Assembly (NCBI GenBank): GCA_022925895.1
Contig: JAKSYS010000810.1
Location: forward strand, 1-23,064
Reading direction: 5' to 3'
DNA: 23,064 bases
DNA from: Fragilaria crotonensis
Lineage: Eukaryota > Bacillariophyta > Fragilariophyceae > Fragilariales > Fragilariaceae
In this document: in pieces, positions 1,927 to 21,390 of the stretch
Layout of the letters: the number at the start of each line of letters is the position of its first letter
Numbering within the stretch: the stretch's first letter is position 1
The notes under the pieces: generated by a model
The model's database searches: none
What the model was told of the DNA's origin: nothing
What the model saw: the letters and a program-made list of their open reading frames with translations, nothing else
Position numbers and translations under genes: made by a program

Positions 1927-4309
1927 ATGAAGCTTTCTACTAGCATTGTCTTGTTGTCCTTGGTCGCCACAGGAACTGACGGCTTTGGCGTTCAAAGGGG
2001 TCAGGTGTCGATGCGCATCGGACATTACGACATGGTCCGTCGTCAGAAGTTCAACAAACTCCTCACCAAGGTCGAAGAAAGTCCCACGAAGGAGACTGTC
2101 GCTACTGTTCTTTTGACCCCTGAGACCAGTGATCTCATCGAAAAGTGTAACTGGAAGTTGCGCAACACGATGATTCGCAAGGTGACGGCTATTGCACGAG
2201 CAAACGGTGCCGACGTTGATGCCTCGTTTGGTGTTCGGTAAGTTCGATGTTTAGATAACGTTGATGTTGATCTGGTACACTCTTTGGCATTGCAACTCAT
2301 TGCTTCTTAATGACTGGCATAGGCCATCACAGAGCGAAAAGGAGCTCATTGACCAAGCGAGAAAAGTTGAAACATTAGCAGCACGTGCAGCCAAGAGAGA
2401 AGCTGAACAAGCAGCTGCGAAGGCTCTGGCAGAAACGAAGGCCAAGAATAAAGCCGCCCGGAGTAAGTGAAACCTGTGCTTTCTTTTTATCCGTCCTGGC
2501 TCGTACCGTGTCTTACATCTGCTGTCGTTTTCAGTTGAAAAGACCAAAGAGGCGCTCGCACGTGCAGCAGAAGCGAAAAAGATCGCATCTCCTCCTGCAC
2601 CGGTGCCAGTTGCCGTTGCCGAACCGGAGCCCATTGCCGTTGTAGAGCCGGAGCCAGTTGCTGTTGTGGAACCGGAGCCTGTTGCTGTTGTGGAACCGGA
2701 GCCAGTTACCGTCGCTGAACCGGAGCCAGTTGCCGTTGCCGAACCAGAGCCTGTTGCTGTTGTGGAACCGGAGGCAGTTGCCGTTGCTGAACCGGAGCCA
2801 GTTGCCGTTGCTGAACCGGAGCCAGTTGCCGTTGTGGAACCTGAGCCAGTTGCCGTTGCTGAACCGGAGCCGGTTGCCGTTGCTGAACCGGAGCCAGTTG
2901 CCGTTGTGGAACCTGAGCCTGTTGCCGTTGTGGAACCTGAGCCTGTTGCCGTTGCTGAACCGGAGCCAGTTGCCGTTGCTGAACCGGAGCCAGTTGCCGT
3001 CGCTGAACCGGAGCCAGTTACCGTCGCTGAACCGGAGCCAGTTGCCGTTGCCGAACCAGAGCCAGTTGCCGTTGCCGAACCAGAGCCAGTTGCTGTTGCT
3101 GAACCGGAGCCAGTTGCCGTTGCTGAACCGGAGCCAGTTGCCGTTGTGGAACCTGAGCCAGTTGCCGTTGTGGAACCTGAGCCTGTTGCCGTTGTGGAAC
3201 CTGAGCCAGTTGCCGTTGCTGAACCGGAGCCGGTTGCCGTTGCTGAACCGGAGCCAGTTGCCGTTGCTGAACCGGAGCCAGTTGCCGTCGCTGAACCGGA
3301 GCCAGTTGCCGTCGCTGAACCGGAGCCAGTTGCCGTTGCCGAACCAGAGCCAGTTGCCGTTGCCGAACCAGAGCCAGTTGCCGTTGCCGTTGCCGAACCC
3401 ACGCCTGCAGCCGCTACACCTGCTGCTTCCGGCGGAGACATCACACCTAAGAGAATCAAAGAGCTCCGAGATGCCACTGGTGCCGGAATGATGGACTGCA
3501 AGAAGGCACTCATCGATTCTGACGGCGACATGGAAGCTGCCACAGAAGTTCTTCGCGCCAAGGGTCTCGCCAAGGCCGACAAGAAGGCTAGCCGCATCGC
3601 CGCTGAAGGAAAGATCGCGGGTGCTACTTCGGGTAGCAAGGCAGTACTTGTCGAAATCAACTGTGAGACTGACTTTGTCGCGAAAGATGCATCCTTCATG
3701 GAATTCACCAAGGGAGTTGCCAATGCCGCACTGGCCGTTGGTGGAGATAATGTTGAAGAGCTGTTGGGTGTCAGCGTAGATGGCTCTACAGTTGAAGAAA
3801 CTCGCCAAGCCCTCGTTGCAAAGATTGGAGAAAATATCCAGGTTCGCCGTCTTGTCGGACGTGGAGGTGGCGATACCACAGTCGGCGCGTACGTCCACAT
3901 GAACCGCATTGGAGTTCTTGTGGAAATTGAGGGAGGAACCCCTGAACTAGCTGAAGATGTTGCCATGCATGTTGCTGCCATGAACCCGCCATTCGCCAGG
4001 CCAGAAGATGTTTCCCAAGAAGTTTTGGATAAGGAGCGCGACTTCCTTACACAACAAGCATTGGACTCTGGAAAACCGAAAGAGATTGTTGAGAAGATGA
4101 TTGAGGGCCGAATTCGCAAATACCTGGAGGAAATCTGTCTGGTTTCCCAAACCTATGTGAAGACTAACGACAAAACAGTTGGAAAGCTGTTGGAAGAGAA
4201 CGGTGCCAAGATGGTCGGCTTCACTAGAATTGAAGTCGGTGAGGGCCTTGAAAAGAGACAGGACGATTTTGCCGCCGAGGTTGCGAAGATGGCTTCTGGC
4301 GGAGTTTAG
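1927..4309 (+). CDS. tsf: Translation elongation factor Ts, probably plastid-targeted, with a giant EPEPVAVA repeat linker
   Basis: Exons 1927-2237, 2323-2462 and 2535-4309 give 741 residues. The introns are 85 bases (GTAAGT...ATAG) and 72 bases (GTAAGT...TCAG), and both joins keep frame. Residues 1-20 form a signal peptide ending near DGF|G, consistent with import into a secondary plastid. A basic, Ala-rich helical region spans about 105-170. Residues 180-435 are 32 copies of the octapeptide EPEPVAVA/V. The EF-Ts core is about 452-741, starting [20 protein letters not shown] and carrying the nucleotide-exchange motif TDFVA at 529-533. Known: EF-Ts recharges EF-Tu with GTP during elongation; plant and green-algal plastid EF-Ts also has long N-terminal extensions. 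Inferred: the Pro/Glu-rich array is a flexible tether. Bacterial EF-Ts is about 280-300 residues, so the core is full length. Confidence 0.93.
2621..3388 (+). repeat. Coding minisatellite, 32 x 24 bases, in the EF-Ts linker
   Basis: Each unit encodes EPEPVAVA or EPEPVAVV, with rare PVTV, PIAV and EAVAV variants. The unit is a multiple of three and lacks stops in several frames, so it creates long false open frames on both strands. Shared variants recur at multi-unit distances: the GCCGGTTGCC variant at about 2870 and 3230 (360 bases, 15 units); GAGCCAGTTACC at about 2698 and 3010 (312 bases, 13 units); and a block near 3001 resembles one near 3289 (288 bases, 12 units). This suggests growth by duplication of blocks rather than only single units. 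Confidence 0.95.
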
Positions 4310-4753
4310 ATTCAAAATAGCTTCAAATGGATTACATATATAGTTAAGGTGCACTCTAAGTTCAACGACCATTCCTACAAACGAAACACTTGAGAGACAT
4401 GCCATGTTCGTGGCATTCTACTTGTTTGCACAACACTTTCCGACGCCTATCAAGAAATCCATCCATCCATCCATCCATCCATCCATCCATCCATCCATCC
4501 CTTCTCGCGCGGAGGACCACCGTATGCCCGAGCAATCAACACGGCAAACCCGATGTCAGAAAGCAACATTGTCACTAATTACTAATTACTATTCAGCTTA
4601 TCAGTGATTCCAGTTTCGATTTTCCTCGGCCCTCTACTACCGGTAGTACAACTGTACGCCAGTACACAGTAATCCAGTAAGGTCATATGCATAGTCACAG
4701 TATTTCAACAAGTAATTCAAAATGAAAAACAGAAATGACGCCATGTTCTCCTC
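4310..4753. other. Intergenic region with a microsatellite; no gene seen
   Basis: After the EF-Ts stop this stretch holds a tetranucleotide microsatellite (listed separately), a TAATTACTAATTACTATT stretch near 4577, and a GTAC-rich patch at about 4640-4672. Short open frames crossing the microsatellite (ending HPSIHPS) are repeat artefacts. Confidence 0.5.
4457..4500 (+). repeat. (ATCC)11 microsatellite
   Basis: Eleven uninterrupted ATCC units occupy 44 bases in the gap downstream of EF-Ts. A perfect tetranucleotide run of this length is likely to vary in length between strains. Confidence 0.97.
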
Positions 4754-6270
4754 ATGATGCCGACCTTAGACTCTAGAGCTAAATGTGCACTTGAGGGGAA
4801 GAGTGTTGTGAGCGAAAATGCATTCGCATCCATTGATCGTATCGACGCTTTCAAGAAACAAGGCAACTCATTGCGGATCCCGGCGTCACGCATCGCGGCC
4901 TTGGCTGGCTATCACCCTTTCGCGGTCCTCCCCAAACTTCTCATTGATTTAGTCTATCAGGGACCAGTAGGCCACGCATTGCGTCTTCAAGACTGTCATG
5001 ATTTGGGGATTGAGCTTGTGTCAACGGATGTACTATTGATGGAACTAGCTCAGAAAGCCGGGAGTGACACTGCCAAAGCGTTAGAGGAGGCGATAAAAGT
5101 CAAAGAGGGATCACAAGTTTTGGAAAATGTCAAGGCCGCTGCAAGGATCAAAATGAGAATAATGGAGGAAGCGAAAAAATCCAAGAATTTGAACCGTGAA
5201 GAATTGAAACGACTGGAAGAGGGCAGTCGAAGCTATGTCGACACTGGGTTTGGAACCAGCCATGAAGATAGTGCGCTGGATCTTTTTCAGAGACAGTGCG
5301 GATGGGAAGTACGGGATCGTAATGCATCGATTATCAATTGGCCATTTGCTCGATCGGAAGATGTTGGCTACGTAGCGGAGGAGCCAACTGTGGTTCCCTT
5401 GGCTGAGGCATCCGCCCGTGAACCACACGGTCAGGTCGATGAACATCCTCACCCAGTACACCGCATGAACTCCGAGGATGACGGACTCATCGACAAGCAG
5501 AAGGTCAAGCCATTCTTTGTAATTTGTGGTGCCGTCGATGGAGTTCGGGACGAGCTTTGTTGCTGTCCAAATGATATCACCGATAGACAGGTCGGCGACG
5601 ATGATTGGAAACTGCGAAAGGTGATTGTGGAATGCAAACATCGCATGCGAAGAGGCAATGCCACGCCCCCGTTGTATGATCAGATTCAAACCACGGCTTA
5701 TTGTCTTATGTACGGCACTGAAGTAGCAGATATAATTCAAGTCTTTCGGAAAGAGAAGCAGAACAACCCGCCAGCAAAACGGACAAAGATTGACGGGAAG
5801 GTGGCAAAACTCGATGAGACTAGGCAAGGAGGTCAACACATTAAGATCGTTCAGTTTCTGCAACTGCAAGCATTAGGTGACGTATCGAGAGCACAGAGCA
5901 CCACCACCTCGTCTGCGACTGCGCAGATGGATCAGAAGGAAAATTGGATCCCGACGAGGTTGTGGAGGCAAGGCCCGACAACGCGATGGAAAAGCTGGAG
6001 CAAGCCATTGAAATTGCCGTGTATCGTCTAACACTCGATGACGGCATCAACAATCACCGACAAAACTGGCACGTGTTTATACTCCCTCGCCTCCGCTCAT
6101 TTGTTGACGCTGTCTATCGCATGAGAGCCGACGATGATACCCGAAAACTGTTCCTGCAAATGGTGGTTGAAGAGGAGCAATCGGGATACGCAACGCAAGC
6201 GAGTTGGGACATGCTCCACCGTGAGTGCCCTTGGCTGAAAGACTGTGATACGGCGTGGTCAAGAATTTAA
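4754..6270 (+). CDS. PD-(D/E)XK (YqaJ-like) nuclease-fold protein, function unknown
   Basis: Proposed exons 4754-5876 and 5927-6270 give 488 residues. The 50-base intron (GTGACG...GCGCAG) is inferred because frame 1 runs on into unrelated sequence while frame 2 continues with a compact, charged C-terminus (LDPDEVVEARPDN...); a sequencing indel near AAGGAAAATTGG is the alternative. Motifs that recall YqaJ/lambda-exonuclease-like nucleases: ASRIAALAGYHPF at 44-56, VDG with Asp262, VECK with Glu293 and Lys295, and QIQTTAYCLMYG starting near Gln310. Known: this fold cuts DNA using Asp, Glu-x-Lys and a later Gln. Inferred: a nuclease or degenerate relative, with no named eukaryotic orthologue that I recognise. 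A short upstream frame (ATG at 4743) ends at the TGA overlapping the start. It converges with BCP1, 54 bases away. Confidence 0.65.
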
Positions 6271-6324
6271 TGAAATAACGGGAACATTATTGAAAATAGT
6301 ACTCAGGATGTTGGCATCAGAACT

Positions 6325-7290
6325 TCAAGATCCCACCAGCTTTTTGAGCTCCTTCATTGCCTCTCGATGGCCTGTCTTGGTCATGACTATCACACTGCAA
6401 ATTTGCTTCTCGTCAGCCCCAAAACTCTTGGGAGCATCAATTGTGTAGAGCAACTCTGAATTGTTGGCAAATATTTCATCATCAAAATACTTATAATCGA
6501 CCATTCCACGCTCACCTGGCGTCCCAGGTGCCAGCCGGATAAAAACCCCAAAGTCCAGAGACTTCCGTTCATCTTCACCACCTTCGGCGTTCTCTACCGC
6601 CCAATCCATATCCAAGACGAGTTGCTGATGCAAGATTTCACAAATTTCAAGCGGCAAATTGACCATGCGACTGTGTAGCAAGAAACCAACGGGTCTCTTG
6701 GTCGTGCCAGACAAAACTGTCTCCATTTCGCCCTTGTGCGGTGCTGGGCATTTGTCGAGACAGAGCTGTTTCAAGTATTTGATACCATTGTCAGATGCAT
6801 TGGTCGTGAGATTTATGACAGACGCAAATCCAAAGACATTGCCATCAGTATCACCCTCAGTTGAAATGACGGTTCCAACTGAAGGGTTTTCAATCATGAG
6901 ATCTGCAAGGGAGGATGACTGAGCGGCGTACACTGTACTACTGGAATGTAAGAGGGTCTTGATGCCATAAAAGAACTTCTCTTTCATGTCCCAAAAGGTA
7001 AATTCCACATGTGTAATGTCTGGTTCTCGACTTGAAGGTTTCTTGCGCTTGCGAGATAGTTTGTCATCTTTTTTGGCAGCCGATGGCGTTTCCTCCTCAT
7101 CGGAGTCTTCGTCGGAATCGTCGGAATCTGAAACATCAGGATTTCGAATCAAAACACCCTCCAACACCAAGTCATCGTCTTCTCCGCTATCCGAATCATC
7201 CGAATCTTCGTCACTGTCTTGACGAGGTGGTACTTGGGCCACCTCTTCCGTCGCGGTCGGTTTGGTGGGTTGTTGATCCTCGCTAGACAT
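6325..7290 (-). CDS. BCP1: BCP1/BCCIP family protein
   Basis: A single exon of 321 residues. The N-terminus is strongly acidic (about 24-67, Asp/Glu/Ser runs) and is followed by a basic cluster KKDDKLSRKRKK at 73-84 that could act as a nuclear localisation signal. The family core follows: HVEFTFWDMKEKFFYGIKTLL at about 94-114, a VGTVISTEGDTDGNVFGF segment typical of BCP1, then VGFLLHSRMVNLPLEI and a C-terminal YFDDEIFANNSELLYT region. Known: yeast Bcp1 is a nuclear export and chaperone factor for Mss4 and ribosomal protein L23; human BCCIP binds BRCA2 and p21. Inferred: a nuclear housekeeping role here. Length and composition match the family. It is divergent from the adenosyltransferase gene, so the gap may carry both promoters. 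Confidence 0.9.
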   Translation of the reverse strand: MSSEDQQPTKPTATEEVAQVPPRQDSDEDSDDSDSGEDDDLVLEGVLIRNPDVSDSDDSDEDSDEEETPSAAKKDDKLSRKRKKPSSREPDITHVEFTFWDMKEKFFYGIKTLLHSSSTVYAAQSSSLADLMIENPSVGTVISTEGDTDGNVFGFASVINLTTNASDNGIKYLKQLCLDKCPAPHKGEMETVLSGTTKRPVGFLLHSRMVNLPLEICEILHQQLVLDMDWAVENAEGGEDERKSLDFGVFIRLAPGTPGERGMVDYKYFDDEIFANNSELLYTIDAPKSFGADEKQICSVIVMTKTGHREAMKELKKLVGS

Positions 7291-7861
7291 GATTGCTCCT
7301 TATGAATGCAAAAGGTGATTGATCAGTGATGGTATGACGGTGGATTGATGCATTTTTGTAATTGACGATCAAGCGCCGGTGTGGAGGAGAGACGCTGGAT
7401 ATTGTTCAAAATCCAAAACACGGAGAACGAAATTCGTTGGTGGCCAGTGGCCAGTGGCCAGTGGCCACGCAACTGGAAACGGGAAACACGCGAGTAATTG
7501 TTCTCTGCAAAGGTTACTGGATACATCGGATTGCAAGCCAGACGGCACCCCCGTATTTAATCCCTGTGAAGCACGTTCTTCCAAAACAAACCTGCCTCCG
7601 AACTCCGAACCTATTGTTTCTGCACAATGCGAGAAATGCGAACAGTCGAACGTTTTGATCACGCACCAGTGACACTCTTAACGGGCACAATACACCACGA
7701 ACCCGACATCGTCAGCCGTTCGGAGCAAAGAATTACCAAAGACTTGCGTATCTTCCCCATTCATTGCTCCCTTTGAGCTCGTCTTGCAATCATCTTTCAC
7801 CACGATTTTCCGTTCACAATTCATTCCCGCCGCCGTTGGGCGAGTGCGTTTTCTGGCTTCC
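7291..7861. promoter_or_regulatory. Divergent intergenic region between BCP1 and the adenosyltransferase
   Basis: Presumed shared 5' region of two divergent genes. It includes the TGGCCAG repeats (listed separately). From 7682 to 7861 the adenosyltransferase frame is open upstream of the first ATG. Other short open frames on both strands show no domain and overlap one another, so I do not call them. Confidence 0.45.
7441..7468 (+). repeat. Four 7-base TGGCCAG tandem units
   Basis: Three TGGCCAG units and a fourth ending in C run head to tail. Each contains the palindrome TGGCCA. The array lies between two divergent genes, so it may be a cluster of binding sites or a simple minisatellite. Confidence 0.9.
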
Positions 7862-8932
7862 ATGGCACCTCAGACGACAACGCACATTTGCAAGCTGACA
7901 CCATCAGCAGAAGATGTTGCTGCGCTTGATATTGAAGATCTTCACCGCCAAGCTGTTCAGCGAGGTGACACGACGTATGTGGACCCAGCCACTGATTTTA
8001 TGGTCTTCACAGAACTTGCGCACCTCAAACGAGGTGTCTGTTGTGGTCGACAGTGTCGGCACTGTCCTTATGGATGGGTTAATGTTCCAGACATAACTTT
8101 CCGACGAGAACCCAAGGTTCAGAGTGGTGATAAGGATGCTGTCAAACGACTTGCCAACAAATTAATTCTCCAACATGTCGATGACGACAATGATCTGCAA
8201 CGTGCACGACAAGCAACAACCCTTAACGGAAAAGGAGGTCGCCATGGAGGGACATTGACACGGAAAAATGTCCCTTACACTCGCAAAGGCGATCAAGGAA
8301 CATCGCAATTACTAACTGGCGAGCGGCGTTTCAAAGATGACAACGCGTTTGAAGCCATGGGTACAGTCGATGAACTGTGCTCTGTGGTGGGAGTTGCTCA
8401 CGCCGAGCTTATTGCGTCTGGTATTGACAAGTATGCGAATCTCGAACAGTATTTGCTTGAAATCATGAGTCGCTTATTCGACATTGGAAGTCATCTAGCG
8501 AAACCGAAGAAAGTCCACGATGATGACGACAGCGACGAGGAAGTGGAGCATTTCCACCCGGATGGAGTAGGTGGCGGCTTTCACGAGAGTCATATTCAAG
8601 ACTTGGAAGAATGGATTGATCTGTACACTGAAGAGCTTCCTGAGCTTCTGTCTTTCATCCTTCCCACTGGAAACAAATTAGCCGCTCAACTACACGTCGC
8701 AAGAACAGTTTGTCGACGAGCGGAGCGCCGTTGTGTAACCCTGGTCGAACAAAGAGTGTGCGATCCTCAGGCTCTCAAATACCTCAATCGTTTATCCGAC
8801 TTCTTCTTTTCGGCAGCCCGGTACGCCAATTTCCGGGAAGGCAAACCAGATTTGCTGTATCGACTTCCGTATTCTGGAGCCAAGCAAAGGCATTGTGTGC
8901 CGTCAGCTAAGCCAAGTAATGTTGAATCGTAG
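7862..8932 (+). CDS. MMAB: DUF5522 domain fused to a PduO-type ATP:cob(I)alamin adenosyltransferase
   Basis: From the first ATG (tccATGG) the protein has 356 residues. Residues 28-72 match the Cys-rich DUF5522 type: YVDPATDFMVF, then GVCCGRQCRHCPYGW with Cys60, 61, 65 and 68. An adenosyltransferase of the PduO/MMAB family follows from about 137: YTRKGDQGTSQLLTGE (ATP-binding loop), FEAMGTVDELCS, ILPTGNKLAAQLHVART, CRRAERR and LNRLSDFFFSAARYANF. An acidic insert DDDDSDEEVE interrupts it. Known: the enzyme moves the adenosyl group of ATP to cobalamin for methylmalonyl-CoA mutase, normally in mitochondria. The 5' frame stays open to 7682 without an ATG and reads as a basic, Ser-rich presequence, so an upstream exon or a non-AUG start may supply mitochondrial targeting. 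Enzyme identity is firm; the N-terminus is uncertain. Confidence 0.9.
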   Translation: MAPQTTTHICKLTPSAEDVAALDIEDLHRQAVQRGDTTYVDPATDFMVFTELAHLKRGVCCGRQCRHCPYGWVNVPDITFRREPKVQSGDKDAVKRLANKLILQHVDDDNDLQRARQATTLNGKGGRHGGTLTRKNVPYTRKGDQGTSQLLTGERRFKDDNAFEAMGTVDELCSVVGVAHAELIASGIDKYANLEQYLLEIMSRLFDIGSHLAKPKKVHDDDDSDEEVEHFHPDGVGGGFHESHIQDLEEWIDLYTEELPELLSFILPTGNKLAAQLHVARTVCRRAERRCVTLVEQRVCDPQALKYLNRLSDFFFSAARYANFREGKPDLLYRLPYSGAKQRHCVPSAKPSNVES

Positions 8933-9039
8933 CACAAAATGAAGCAATCCTGTTTGCTTAGGATCAGCATGGCTATGTGAAGCATACATGCAGTAATGTA
9001 TCGTTCTATCTGTGTGCAGACTTATGGCGCGCGCATGCA

Positions 9040-10924
9040 TTACGCTGCGCCAGTCTCATTACGAAAAATAGTTTCGGCGTCTATTGCCAGGTCTTCCACC
9101 TCGTGGAACCAGAAGCCCGCAGCAAGCATGGTATAGATGCCAATTAAGGCTGTGCCCACAAGCCAGTTGGTAGTCCCACCCTGCAGGACTGCCGCCACGG
9201 CAATCACACCGAAAAAGAGACAGCACGTTTCGTAACCACCCATGAATAGGGTCATGGATCGATCAACAAACATTCCGACCAAGACGCAGCCCGGCAGCAC
9301 AAAGCAGGCTATTTGAATGGCGCTACCCACTGTTACACCAACGCAGAGATCCATCTCATTTCTGTAGGCAAAGAGAATCGCACTAACTTGTTCGGCAACA
9401 TTGGAAAAGAATGGTACAATGACCATGGACGTGAAGACTTCGCTAAGGTCACATCTCGCGGCGAAGCCGTCAATCGTATCCACAAGAATGTCGCTCATGG
9501 CGGAAATACAAAGAGTAATGATGAAAAGCCACACAATTCCGACACGGAACGACATGAGCGCTGCCAATAGCAAAAGTGAGCAACGGTGTTTGGTGTGCGC
9601 ATAGGCGAAATCACTTGAACGACACAAGTCAACTCACGTGGTCCACGTTCGTCGTTGGACAAATCCCTATGCGGATCTCCACCAACGTCCGTAACATTCG
9701 TATCACGCGACGTCTTTGACAGTATCACAACATCTTTTGCAGCGCCATTCGATGTGGTTGGTTCCACACCACGTCGACGCCTTCTTCGACTTCCCGTCTC
9801 CAGACTTGGAAGAGATTGCGATTCCAAGGCAGATTCTAAGGATTCTCGAAAAATTTCATCTCCTTCATTCTTGTTGTCGCTTTCATCCGAATCCGAGAGA
9901 TCCGAGTTGTCCATAGCACCCATCTCCAATCCAGCATCGGAAGTTCTGGACTTATTCAATGGGCCATGTTCCGTCGACGAATCCACCGTCGCATACCCTT
10001 GTCGTTGAGTTTCTCGAGAGAACAATTTCATACAAAAATTGTTGCGCGCGGCCCTCTTTTTTCGTCCGTGCCGAGACGTAAAATGTGGAGACAGAATAAG
10101 TAGGTTATCCGGTGTCTCAACAATATTCTCCTCCTCGTCGAATTCTTCCTTGTGCGTCCCGAGTTGAAAGAGGAGGTAGCATACATACATACCCATTAGA
10201 ACAACGGCATTCACTCGAGAAAAATGTAATTCGTCGGTTGATGGCATACCCTGAGGTGAATCTTTGTGTTGCATTTGTCCACTCATATTCAGCGACGCTG
10301 GCAATAGAGATCCGGCTGTCGCTACCAAGAGCAGTAGAACTGAAACATTACCAGATGTGATTCGTAACTCTTGAACTTGCCATCGAAGACCTCCAACCAA
10401 GCAGGACACACCAAAGACAAATAGTAGGTTGGTCAACATGGAACCCAGCATGGCAAGCTGCACGACACGGTAAAACCCAGACCGAAGGGCTGCTGTTGAT
10501 ATCAACAATTCAGGAGCATTGCCGAAGGTCGCATTCAGCAACGCGCCAATGGTTCCGTTGGTGTGTGCGGCGACTTGCTCCGTCACAAAGGATAGTCTAT
10601 AAAAAGGGAAACACGATGAGTGATGACGTGATGACGCGTTTCACAAACGAAATATAAAACACGACGCGAAAGCCAACAATACAGCAGCCCATAACTAAGT
10701 ACTCACCGTTCAGCACATGGAATCAAGGCCAATCCGGAGCATGCAAAGCAAACCGCTTCTCCCAAAAGCCCAGTAGCATCGCCCACCAATGCGACTGGTC
10801 CTAGCACCAAAAGCCATGTCAACCGGCTCTGAAATAACAAATCGGTCGACACCCAAATTTCTCGCATCAATATGGAGCCAAACTCCCAATACGTTGATCG
10901 AGGTTGAGTTACCGGATTCAACAT
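9040..10924 (-). CDS. CAX: Ca2+/H+ antiporter (CAX family) with a long acidic cytosolic-type loop
   Basis: Exons on the minus strand are 10924-10707, 10596-9638 and 9560-9040, giving 565 residues. Introns are 110 bases (GTGAGT...ATAG) and 77 bases (GTGAGT...GCAG). Repeat 1 carries GNAPELLIS at 98-106; repeat 2 carries PFFSNVAEQVSAI from 442, followed by DLCVGVTVGSAIQIACFVLP. Hydrophobic segments fit about 11 membrane helices. Residues 220-392 between the halves form a long Ser/Asp/Glu-rich loop with a GSRRRRRRG run. Known: CAX proteins move Ca2+ or other cations into vacuoles in exchange for protons, and the central loop is often acidic. Odd: the second motif is usually GNAAEH, but here it reads SNVAEQ, with Gln450 in place of the conserved His. 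Family is firm; ion specificity is open. Confidence 0.92.
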
Positions 10925-19365: not shown

Positions 19366-19822
19366 CTAACAGTTGGGGCAGAAGTGCAACTCCACAACCG
19401 CTCCAGAATAAGGGACGAACACATCCAACTTCATCACATTCCTCTTGTTCGCAATAACACGCTGCACAGCGTTATCTCCAAGGCCCTTGTAGGTAAAGGT
19501 TTCCACCTTTCCGTCCTGGTACGTGAAGACAAGCCTCTGCAAATTGGTGCCTGGAATGTCCAACAACGCAATGTCAGAAAACAAGACTGGTTGAGTGAAT
19601 GTGAACGTCATGGTTCCACCTGTAGCATTGTCGTCTGGAGTGGTTTTATTGCTCTCTTGAATAATCAAGACATCTGTAAGTACATGACACGCAGGCAGGG
19701 TGAGTTTCAGGATTGTGGTGAACGGGCTCAACGAGTATAGTACGTGATCTTACTTCCGAGGGGCTTGCAGTTCTCCCCAAGTTTGCCTGGAATTCCGTTT
19801 TTGCCCACACCTGGTCCACCAC

Positions 19823-19830
19823 CTGGACAG
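19823..19830. repeat. Target-site duplication, left copy (CTGGACAG)
   Basis: Eight bases identical to 20279-20286 and directly abutting the left terminal repeat. They belong to the coding exon of the minus-strand gene. Confidence 0.9.
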
Positions 19831-20278
19831 CAGTGCATGACATCTGAGATAAAAACGGCACCCGAAGCCGCAGCCGGCCGATTTTTTGCAGAGGCTTTTG
19901 GCCGCAGCCGGCCGTATGCCGATATGTGAGCCCGGCCGTACCCGTCTGCAGTCCGACAGTCCCTGCCCGCACAGGGCCGCAGCCGGACTGTCACTGCCCG
20001 TACCCGTACCCGGCCGCAGTCGTAAGGAAGTACAGTACATACTATAAACATAGTACACAGTACTGTACTGACAGTACGTTGTCAGCAACCACCGTACCCG
20101 TGAAAAATGACAGGTGTGATCCGCCCTTTACCCGGGATTGGCCAAAAAGTGATAGGAATCGACCGGAGCCGGCCGGAACCGGCCGGGACCTAAATACACG
20201 GACCGCAGCCGCCCGAAATCACGGCCGGCCCGCGATTTCCGGCCGGCTGCGGCTAACGGGCCCCGATGTCATGCACTG
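19831..20278. mobile_element. Non-autonomous hAT-like DNA transposon (MITE), 448 bases
   Basis: Perfect 14-base terminal inverted repeats: CAGTGCATGACATC at 19831-19844 and its reverse complement at 20265-20278. Perfect 8-base target duplications flank them. A second, 15-base inverted pair AGCCGCAGCCGGCCG lies inside (19866-19880 and 20240-20254), and the interior is rich in GGCCG and CCGTACCCG motifs with a GTAC-rich centre (20029-20100). There is no transposase frame. Known: hAT elements make 8-base duplications of the form nTnnnnAn and have ends beginning CAG or TAG; CTGGACAG (CTGTCCAG on the gene strand) fits. Inferred: a MITE mobilised by a hAT transposase elsewhere in the genome. Perfect duplications and ends suggest a recent insertion. 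Confidence 0.9.
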
Positions 20279-20286
20279 CTGGACAG
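20279..20286. repeat. Target-site duplication, right copy (CTGGACAG)
   Basis: Eight bases identical to 19823-19830 and directly abutting the right terminal repeat. One copy is enough to restore the reading frame of the interrupted exon. Confidence 0.9.
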
Positions 20287-21180
20287 GCGGAGTTGGGACT
20301 AGTACCCAAATCGGGGTCTCCGTTTTCCAGGGTTCCAGGGTTTGAAGTGTCGAAAACACGAGCCATGTTGTTAGGGCTATAACCGCCAGTTGCGGTGACC
20401 GTCAGGCCGTACTTGTTGAACCACTCATTTTTTACATACGCGCCCCGAGCGAGGACTGTTCCGTCTCCTTCCGTAGAGAAGTCGATTGTCACACAGGTTG
20501 GACACTTCGATTGACTGAGGCTTACAAATAATGTGCCGAGATTCGTTGAGTCCAAGAACCCGGGCCCGTCGCTAATGGGACATTGTGTACTCAAGATTTG
20601 TGCCAATGATGACCCACTGATGATGACGTCAATGATTGGATTGACTCCAAGGCAGCCAGGGTACAAAGGAACAAGTTCTTTTGCAAAGGCTGCCTCCAAC
20701 GTCGCTTCCATCTGTGGTTTGAAGGTATTTGTAAACCATGCGCTAACAAGACCCCTGTGCCCGTCATTGGCTTCACCCCCTTTACCATTGTTACATAGCA
20801 CTCTCTTATCCCCATTATCAGCTGAGCACATTCCTCGGCGGCAACCCCCGATGCCTCTCCACATAAACCGGGACACTCGCAGGCGGCGCCTCGTTGCAGA
20901 TGTGGGAGCTGGGCATACACCAGCAATGTATGCTGCATCGTCATAAGCACCTGCATCACCAACACCGTAGTTCAACAAGATGGTATTTATGTCGTGTCCA
21001 AGTAAGAGTTGGTCAGCCAGCCTGCAGGATTGTGTCAGCAAATTCTGAGGAGTTATCGATACGGTGATGTCAAAGAAATCTACCACTCCCGGATCCAGTG
21101 CACACACCACTGCCGCGGTTCGTCCTCGGGACGATTGCATCAACTGCTCAGTAAAGTTTTGTTGAACGATATGCTTGACA

Positions 21181-21390
21181 TGGTACCTGGTACCTGGTAC
21201 TTGTACCCAAACAAATGCTCCATGATGCGACTCGTTTATCTGGTCGCTGGTCATGGCCATGGTACAGTAGTGTGTACGTGGTATGTTGTAGGTCGTACTC
21301 TTACTCCAGTACAGGTACTTGCAGTACGTTCTGGACTCTGGAGTCTGGAGTATCATACGCTACTACCGCTACTCTAGTACTCTAGTACAC
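21181..21390. repeat. GTAC-rich tract with TGGTACC tandem units
   Basis: By hand count GTAC occurs 12 times between 21183 and 21388, against about one expected by chance. It starts with TGGTACC, TGGTACC, TGGTACT in tandem at 21181-21201. The inverted repeat GACTC..GAGTC lies near 21333-21344. The tract is at the 5' side of the interrupted gene, so it could be a promoter, an intron or a decayed repeat. Confidence 0.75.

Follow-up and report, generated by a model that had tools for sequence, protein, structure and literature searches.

Does the 448-bp segment that lies inside a coding exon of the diatom Fragilaria crotonensis represent a transposon that broke the gene, an intron that the transcript loses, or neither? 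We examined it in a window of 23,064 nucleotides, the whole stretch of DNA analyzed here (contig JAKSYS010000810.1 of assembly GCA_022925895.1, positions 1 to 23,064; contig C791 in our numbering). Our reading, held with high confidence, is that a non-autonomous hAT transposon (MITE) inserted in a coding exon of a gene formerly under purifying selection. The hAT-family insertion proposed in a first-pass annotation of the window is supported by further copies in the genome, by a paralogue without the element and by a hAT element with an open transposase frame on another contig (C146).

Ends and structure of the element

Re-measurement of the segment, which occupies 19831-20278, bore out the structure that the annotation had described, i.e. 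14-base perfect terminal inverted repeats (TIR), an exact 8-base target-site duplication (TSD) on both sides and a nested 15-base inverted pair with 100% complementarity. The duplication fits nTnnnnAn, as the annotation had stated, its second base being T and its seventh A; nTnnnnAn is the target pattern reported for Hermes (PMC2803484, PMC10368747).

19831..20278, plus strand: non-autonomous hAT element (MITE), 448 bp, recognized by its ends, TIR, TSD and genome copies
19823..19830: TSD CTGGACAG, copy 1
20279..20286: TSD CTGGACAG, copy 2
19831..19844, plus strand: left TIR CAGTGCATGACATC
20265..20278, minus strand: right TIR, perfect complement of the left
19866..19880, plus strand: nested 15-bp pair, left arm; holds a CGGCCG sub-terminal site (19875-19880)
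20240..20254, minus strand: nested 15-bp pair, right arm; holds a CGGCCG sub-terminal site (20240-20245)

Being short (448 bp) and carrying both a 14-bp TIR and an 8-bp TSD, the segment has the build of a MITE. A rough estimate for a window-sized sequence, which took lengths of 200-1000 and assumed independence, puts the chance of meeting a 14-bp TIR together with an 8-bp TSD at ~1e-6. The GC content of the element is 60%, compared with about 44 to 58% across the 1-kb bins of the window. A MITE should lack coding capacity; here one plus-strand frame (19848-20345) spans most of the element without a stop, and its part up to 20276 matched no Pfam family up to E 1. Elsewhere in the window, the gene at 2471-4309 encodes elongation factor Ts, with a long Pro-Glu-Val-Ala repeat ahead of the EF-Ts domain, and the region has long open frames on the opposite strand too.

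The interrupted gene and its paralogue

The host gene is read from the minus strand and consists of the following parts:

20279..21260, minus strand: interrupted exon, 5' part, with a possible ATG at 21260 (the true start may be upstream)
19754..19830, minus strand: interrupted exon, 3' part
19674..19753, minus strand: intron of 80 nt (GTAAG...TTACAG), predicted from sequence
19366..19673, minus strand: last exon, ending at the stop
20253..20255, minus strand: first of three element-borne in-frame stops; the other two begin at 20192 and 20084

Leaving out the element and one duplication gave an open host frame of 391 codons from stop to stop, or 358 codons counted from the ATG at 21260; the restored frame of the annotation thus stood, and its length of 413 codons did not. 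When the downstream 80-nt intron was left out as well, the frame reached a stop at 452 aa. With the element present, the frame from the ATG at 21260 stops at 20253-20255 after 335 residues. Given that the element adds three in-frame stop codons to the exon, the protein from the interrupted copy should end after those 335 residues, without about its last quarter. We infer that the host gene is dead; loss of function is short of proved, because the host frame beyond the element remains open and some frame-compatible GT...AG pairs exist. The window copy of the element carries a private 2-bp insertion at 20114-20115 (element positions 284-285), with which element and duplication together measure 456 bp, a length divisible by three. 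This is probably a coincidence, since the three in-frame stops persist.

The annotation had named the same sequence kept as a spliced intron in paralogues as a finding that would speak against an insertion. Examination of a paralogue on contig C25 (L040) revealed a sequence that is continuous across the homologous position and lacks the element, and that shares the place of the next intron (82 nt, compared with 80 nt in the window gene). Base identity between the two genes is 80.7% and residue identity 79.6%, measured over 422 of 453 codons (the first 27 and all gapped and stop codons being dropped), with dN 0.13 and dS 0.63 (NG86) or dN 0.14 and dS 0.51 (YN00). The low dN against dS (0.13 vs 0.63) shows constraint on the gene, and these rates indicate that it had been under purifying selection. 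No Pfam family matched the host protein. The annotation had raised the possibility of a heterozygous or strain-specific allele; the protein search of the genome itself found no second allele of the gene. The first residues of the window gene differ from the start of the paralogue, and its 5' end is therefore uncertain.

Near its 3' end the paralogue itself has a shifted frame; it may be damaged as well, or the shift may be an assembly error. Both close members of the gene pair thus appear damaged in the assembly, and in view of the shifted frame on C25 the pair may be dispensable. We considered an 8-nt alignment difference near the 3' end as an excision footprint in C25 and dropped this reading because the residues of a more distant homologue (L055) agree with C25's version; we prefer an in-frame loss from the window gene together with a frame change in C25.

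Copies of the element and their target sites

The annotation had proposed a search of the genome for copies with the same ends and different 8-base duplications, and had named the lack of any other copy as evidence against its reading. In 62.1 Mb on 881 contigs the window element gave at least 43 DNA matches, a lower bound, and 40 loci were examined (39 outside the window plus the window). Perfect 8-bp TSDs were found at 36 of the 40, 34 of them directly (window included), one after placement of the ends (L013) and one in a nested copy (L018); L034, L037, L038 and L039 are truncated or partial and have no clean duplication. As 16 of the loci represent one multiplied insertion and L016 and L017 form a duplicate pair, these correspond to 20 independent insertion sites with a perfect TSD. 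The family therefore has multiple copies at unrelated sites, as expected of a MITE.

Among 19 independent sites, the nested L018 being left out of the test, T occupies position 2 in 15 and A position 7 in 17, and both occur together in 13 (binomial about 6e-11). Once L018 is counted, 14 of 20 sites have both, i.e. the 8-bp duplications have the nTnnnnAn tendency of hAT elements. The TIR pattern, with at most one mismatch allowed, occurs 117 times in the genome, compared with 29 occurrences of the reversed control. One TIR with a single mismatch, CAGTGCATGCCATC, recurs at least 11 times among the matches listed, which suggests a sister family. Around the exact TIR matches L048, L049, L050, L051, L053 and L054 no paired element was found within 3 kb, L051 being a right end only. 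L052 is a further divergent copy with the TSD CTACCCAA and flanks common with L036. The nested copy L018 (C433:19300-19747), with a duplication of its own, sits inside an inverted relative of the MITE family. L016 (C49) and L017 (C68) hold the same MITE insertion in stretches that are 99.86% identical over 2848 columns, reflecting either a recent duplication or redundant assembly.

One insertion has been multiplied together with the sequence around it:

Filled carriers L003, L004, L010, L015, L019, L021-L027, L029-L031 and L033: one MITE insertion, at least 16 copies

All 16 have the same duplication, and their flanks correspond for more than ~750 bp to either side; they hence represent a single insertion multiplied with its carrier. 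The carrier is a larger repeat that is also present without the MITE in at least 23 places. The joined flanks matched unbroken over at least 493 of 500 letters at 23 places with 82-90% identity, and at one further place over 407 letters (40 of 55 candidates were scored). Reading the junction in all 23 revealed that L058 alone has the filled form minus the element and that the other 22 are without 8 or 9 further bases. Because only L058 has the simple empty form, the carrier repeat is weaker evidence for an empty site than the C25 paralogue. All 16 filled copies have CTGTGCTG-GTGTGCAG before the element, L058 has CTATGCTG-GTGCGCAG at the junction and L059 has CTGTGCAG. An imperfect 8-bp doubling (CTGTGCTG-GTGTGCAG) is thus present in the filled carriers and L058, and a short single form in the other 22; the doubling could be an older hAT excision footprint or a plain local duplication.

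The annotation had called the insertion recent. Five copies (L005, L006, L007, L008 and L009), each at its own site and with a different duplication, do not differ at any of 446 bp, and L001 and L002 are identical over 445 bp at two sites; identical copies at different sites indicate that the MITE family moved recently. For the window copy itself recency found moderate support only. Between it and L001/L002 there are 8 substitutions and 3 gap columns. In comparison with the other aligned copies (the alignment left out L018, L032, L034, L037, L038 and L039), four substitutions and the 2-bp insertion are private to it, a fifth substitution recurs in L035 and in two of the carrier copies, and the other three substitutions, like one gap, were assigned to the L001/L002 side. 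No aligned copy is an identical sister. The pattern lends moderate support to a window copy that is young and not the youngest, and some of its changes may predate the insertion.

Could the element be spliced as an intron?

An introner-like intron, with the element spliced from the mRNA and the host gene still working, is a reading to which we assign very little probability. Frame-compatible GT...AG pairs are present, and on either side of the element the host frame has stayed open. In Aureococcus, introners bring both splice sites with them and contribute codons from the element and the 8-bp TSD, and introners derived from DNA transposons resemble our case in having a TIR, an 8-bp TSD and an insertion in a protein-coding exon (PMC9860276). 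The best-looking acceptor, TTTTTATCTCAG, lies inside the element near its left end on the minus strand, and the sole frame-keeping GT donor inside the element that can be used with it is a weak GTTAGCC; their use would add 14 codons. Against splicing, the candidate donors are by eye unlike the gene's own GTAAGAT donor, and the C25 paralogue has no intron at the homologous position. Furthermore, only the window copy, one of 24 non-redundant loci, lies in a coding frame backed by a homologue (24 of the 40 remained once L017 and all but one of the 16 same-site carrier copies had been set aside as redundant). The frames of L012, L013 and L035 were inspected and lie outside the homologue search. 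L028 was considered as a second coding insertion and rejected, its 244-codon frame being a tandem repeat.

Introner copies would be expected mostly in genes as introns, and here 1 of 24 loci lies in a coding frame backed by a homologue. Given the weak donors and this single homologue-backed coding frame, the MITE family lacks the look of an introner family as described in PMC9860276: it is not concentrated in genes and, judged by eye, offers no good donor. An intron in the making, in which the usable acceptor and weak donor are spliced in some transcripts and the 14 added codons are tolerated in a constrained gene, seems to us improbable as well. If it were true, a hAT MITE would now and then give rise to new introns in this alga.

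A candidate autonomous partner

The annotation had proposed to look for a hAT transposase with the ends of the element. Such an element was found at C146:41745-51496 (L044, L047). It is 9752 bp long, with TIR matches at 41745 and 51496 and the TSD CTTCGGAG outside both. Over the last 110 bp on the right it shares 94.5% identity with the window element, and 77.5% over 178 bp on the left; compared with 13 other MITE copies the identity of the right end reaches 96.4%. The MITE thus has ends in common with an element of autonomous type. The partner carries one unbroken transposase frame of 780 aa, which matches Hermes (PDB) in three stretches with E 6.3e-35 and the Pfam families Dimer_Tnp_hAT (PF05699; 9.8e-17) and DBD_Tnp_Hermes (5.7e-7), placing the dimerisation domain of hAT transposases in the frame. 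The motifs TLDIWTD, VVTDSASNN and SKSECNFS start at residues 285, 362 and 743, the first and last of them align with Hermes, and their acidic residues are the putative catalytic ones.

A tandem array from 4326 to 9111 of the partner, 4.8 kb or about half the element, has a TRF period of 186 and strong self-matches at steps of ~375 bp. In its 9.75 kb and this array the partner is unlike Hermes, which is shorter than 9.75 kb. One copy of this transposase was found in the genome, the next by score being 42% identical. The unbroken frame suggests that the protein may be active and, with the matching ends, that it may mobilise the MITE family. Because its left end is just 77.5% identical, the C146 element may be a cousin rather than the source of the MITE, and a closer partner could lie elsewhere in the genome, beyond the TIR matches listed and the six of 31 loci with hAT dimerisation-domain matches that were examined for ends.

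Both elements carry CGGCCG near their ends. It occurs at 8 places in the MITE (element positions 45, 79, 103, 181, 340, 350, 392 and 410), which form two clusters:

19875..20016: left cluster, four CGGCCG sites (45, 79, 103, 181), proposed transposase binding sites
20170..20245: right cluster, four CGGCCG sites (340, 350, 392, 410)

In the partner it occurs at 9 places (45, 79, 104, 177, 9613, 9644, 9654, 9696 and 9714), all confined to the outermost 182 bp on the left and 140 bp on the right, with none in the ~9.4 kb between, and four right-side sites are common to MITE and partner at the same distances from the right end. According to PMC10368747, Hermes is proposed to bind sub-terminal repeats via BED domains and in cells needs about 220 bp of each end; the 448-bp element approximates two Hermes-sized ends of about 220 bp. 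From their arrangement, the CGGCCG sites are putative transposase binding sites in both elements.

In the mechanism that we propose, a Hermes-like hAT transposase, encoded by an element like the one of 9752 bp on C146 and acting in trans, would bind the common TIRs and the sub-terminal CGGCCG sites. It would then cut the short element out and join it across a staggered 8-bp target, whose repair would create the duplication, and the insertion would account for the three stops in frame within the host exon.

Duplications of 8 bp are not confined to hAT elements and by themselves would be compatible with another superfamily that makes duplications of this length. That the element belongs to such a superfamily is very improbable: the C146 element, whose ends match, codes for a hAT protein resembling Hermes, and the duplications conform to nTnnnnAn, as reported for Hermes (PMC2803484, PMC10368747). 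An assembly artefact or a chance inverted repeat, which might be raised because the evidence comes from a single assembly, has next to no credibility in view of the many copies that have precise ends and differ in their duplications, and of a chance estimate of about 1e-6.

Relation to known elements and significance

The C146 partner resembles Hermes (PMC10368747) in its protein, along three stretches, in the nTnnnnAn preference and in short repeats near both ends, and differs from it in the TIR (14 bp here, an imperfect 17 bp in Hermes) and in the sub-terminal motif. BniHAT families of Brassica nigra (PMC7385995) are likewise short non-autonomous hAT elements with many copies; the likeness is by description only, the host lineage is another one and copy number here is moderate (at least 43 matches). 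Ac/Ds of maize (PMC3260210), also likened by description only, likewise includes short non-autonomous elements with the ends of a larger autonomous one, and for our MITE the interaction with the partner is a proposed one. As to the host, a light-harvesting protein of this genome (L061) had its best match among fucoxanthin-chlorophyll proteins (6ly5_A, E 1.1e-87), entry 6ly5 being from a diatom, which points to a probable diatom; a second such protein (L062) was closest to LHCI chains of entry 9vfj. Among algae, the diatom Cyclotella cryptica, which has been screened for MITEs too, has hAT elements listed (PMC7466962), and a hAT family with a detected transposase is described in the haptophyte Tisochrysis lutea (PMC5963040). 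In the part of the literature on hAT MITEs in diatoms or stramenopiles that we covered, this MITE family was not found named.

The biology is otherwise ordinary; hAT MITEs are a kind of element already known. What one algal genome holds here is a nearly complete natural set for hAT mobility: a recently multiplied MITE family, filled sites, an insertion-free paralogue, a probably broken gene and a candidate autonomous partner with an open transposase frame. With this set in one genome, hAT mobility in the lineage becomes directly testable, and the MITE and its partner might yield a transposon tool.
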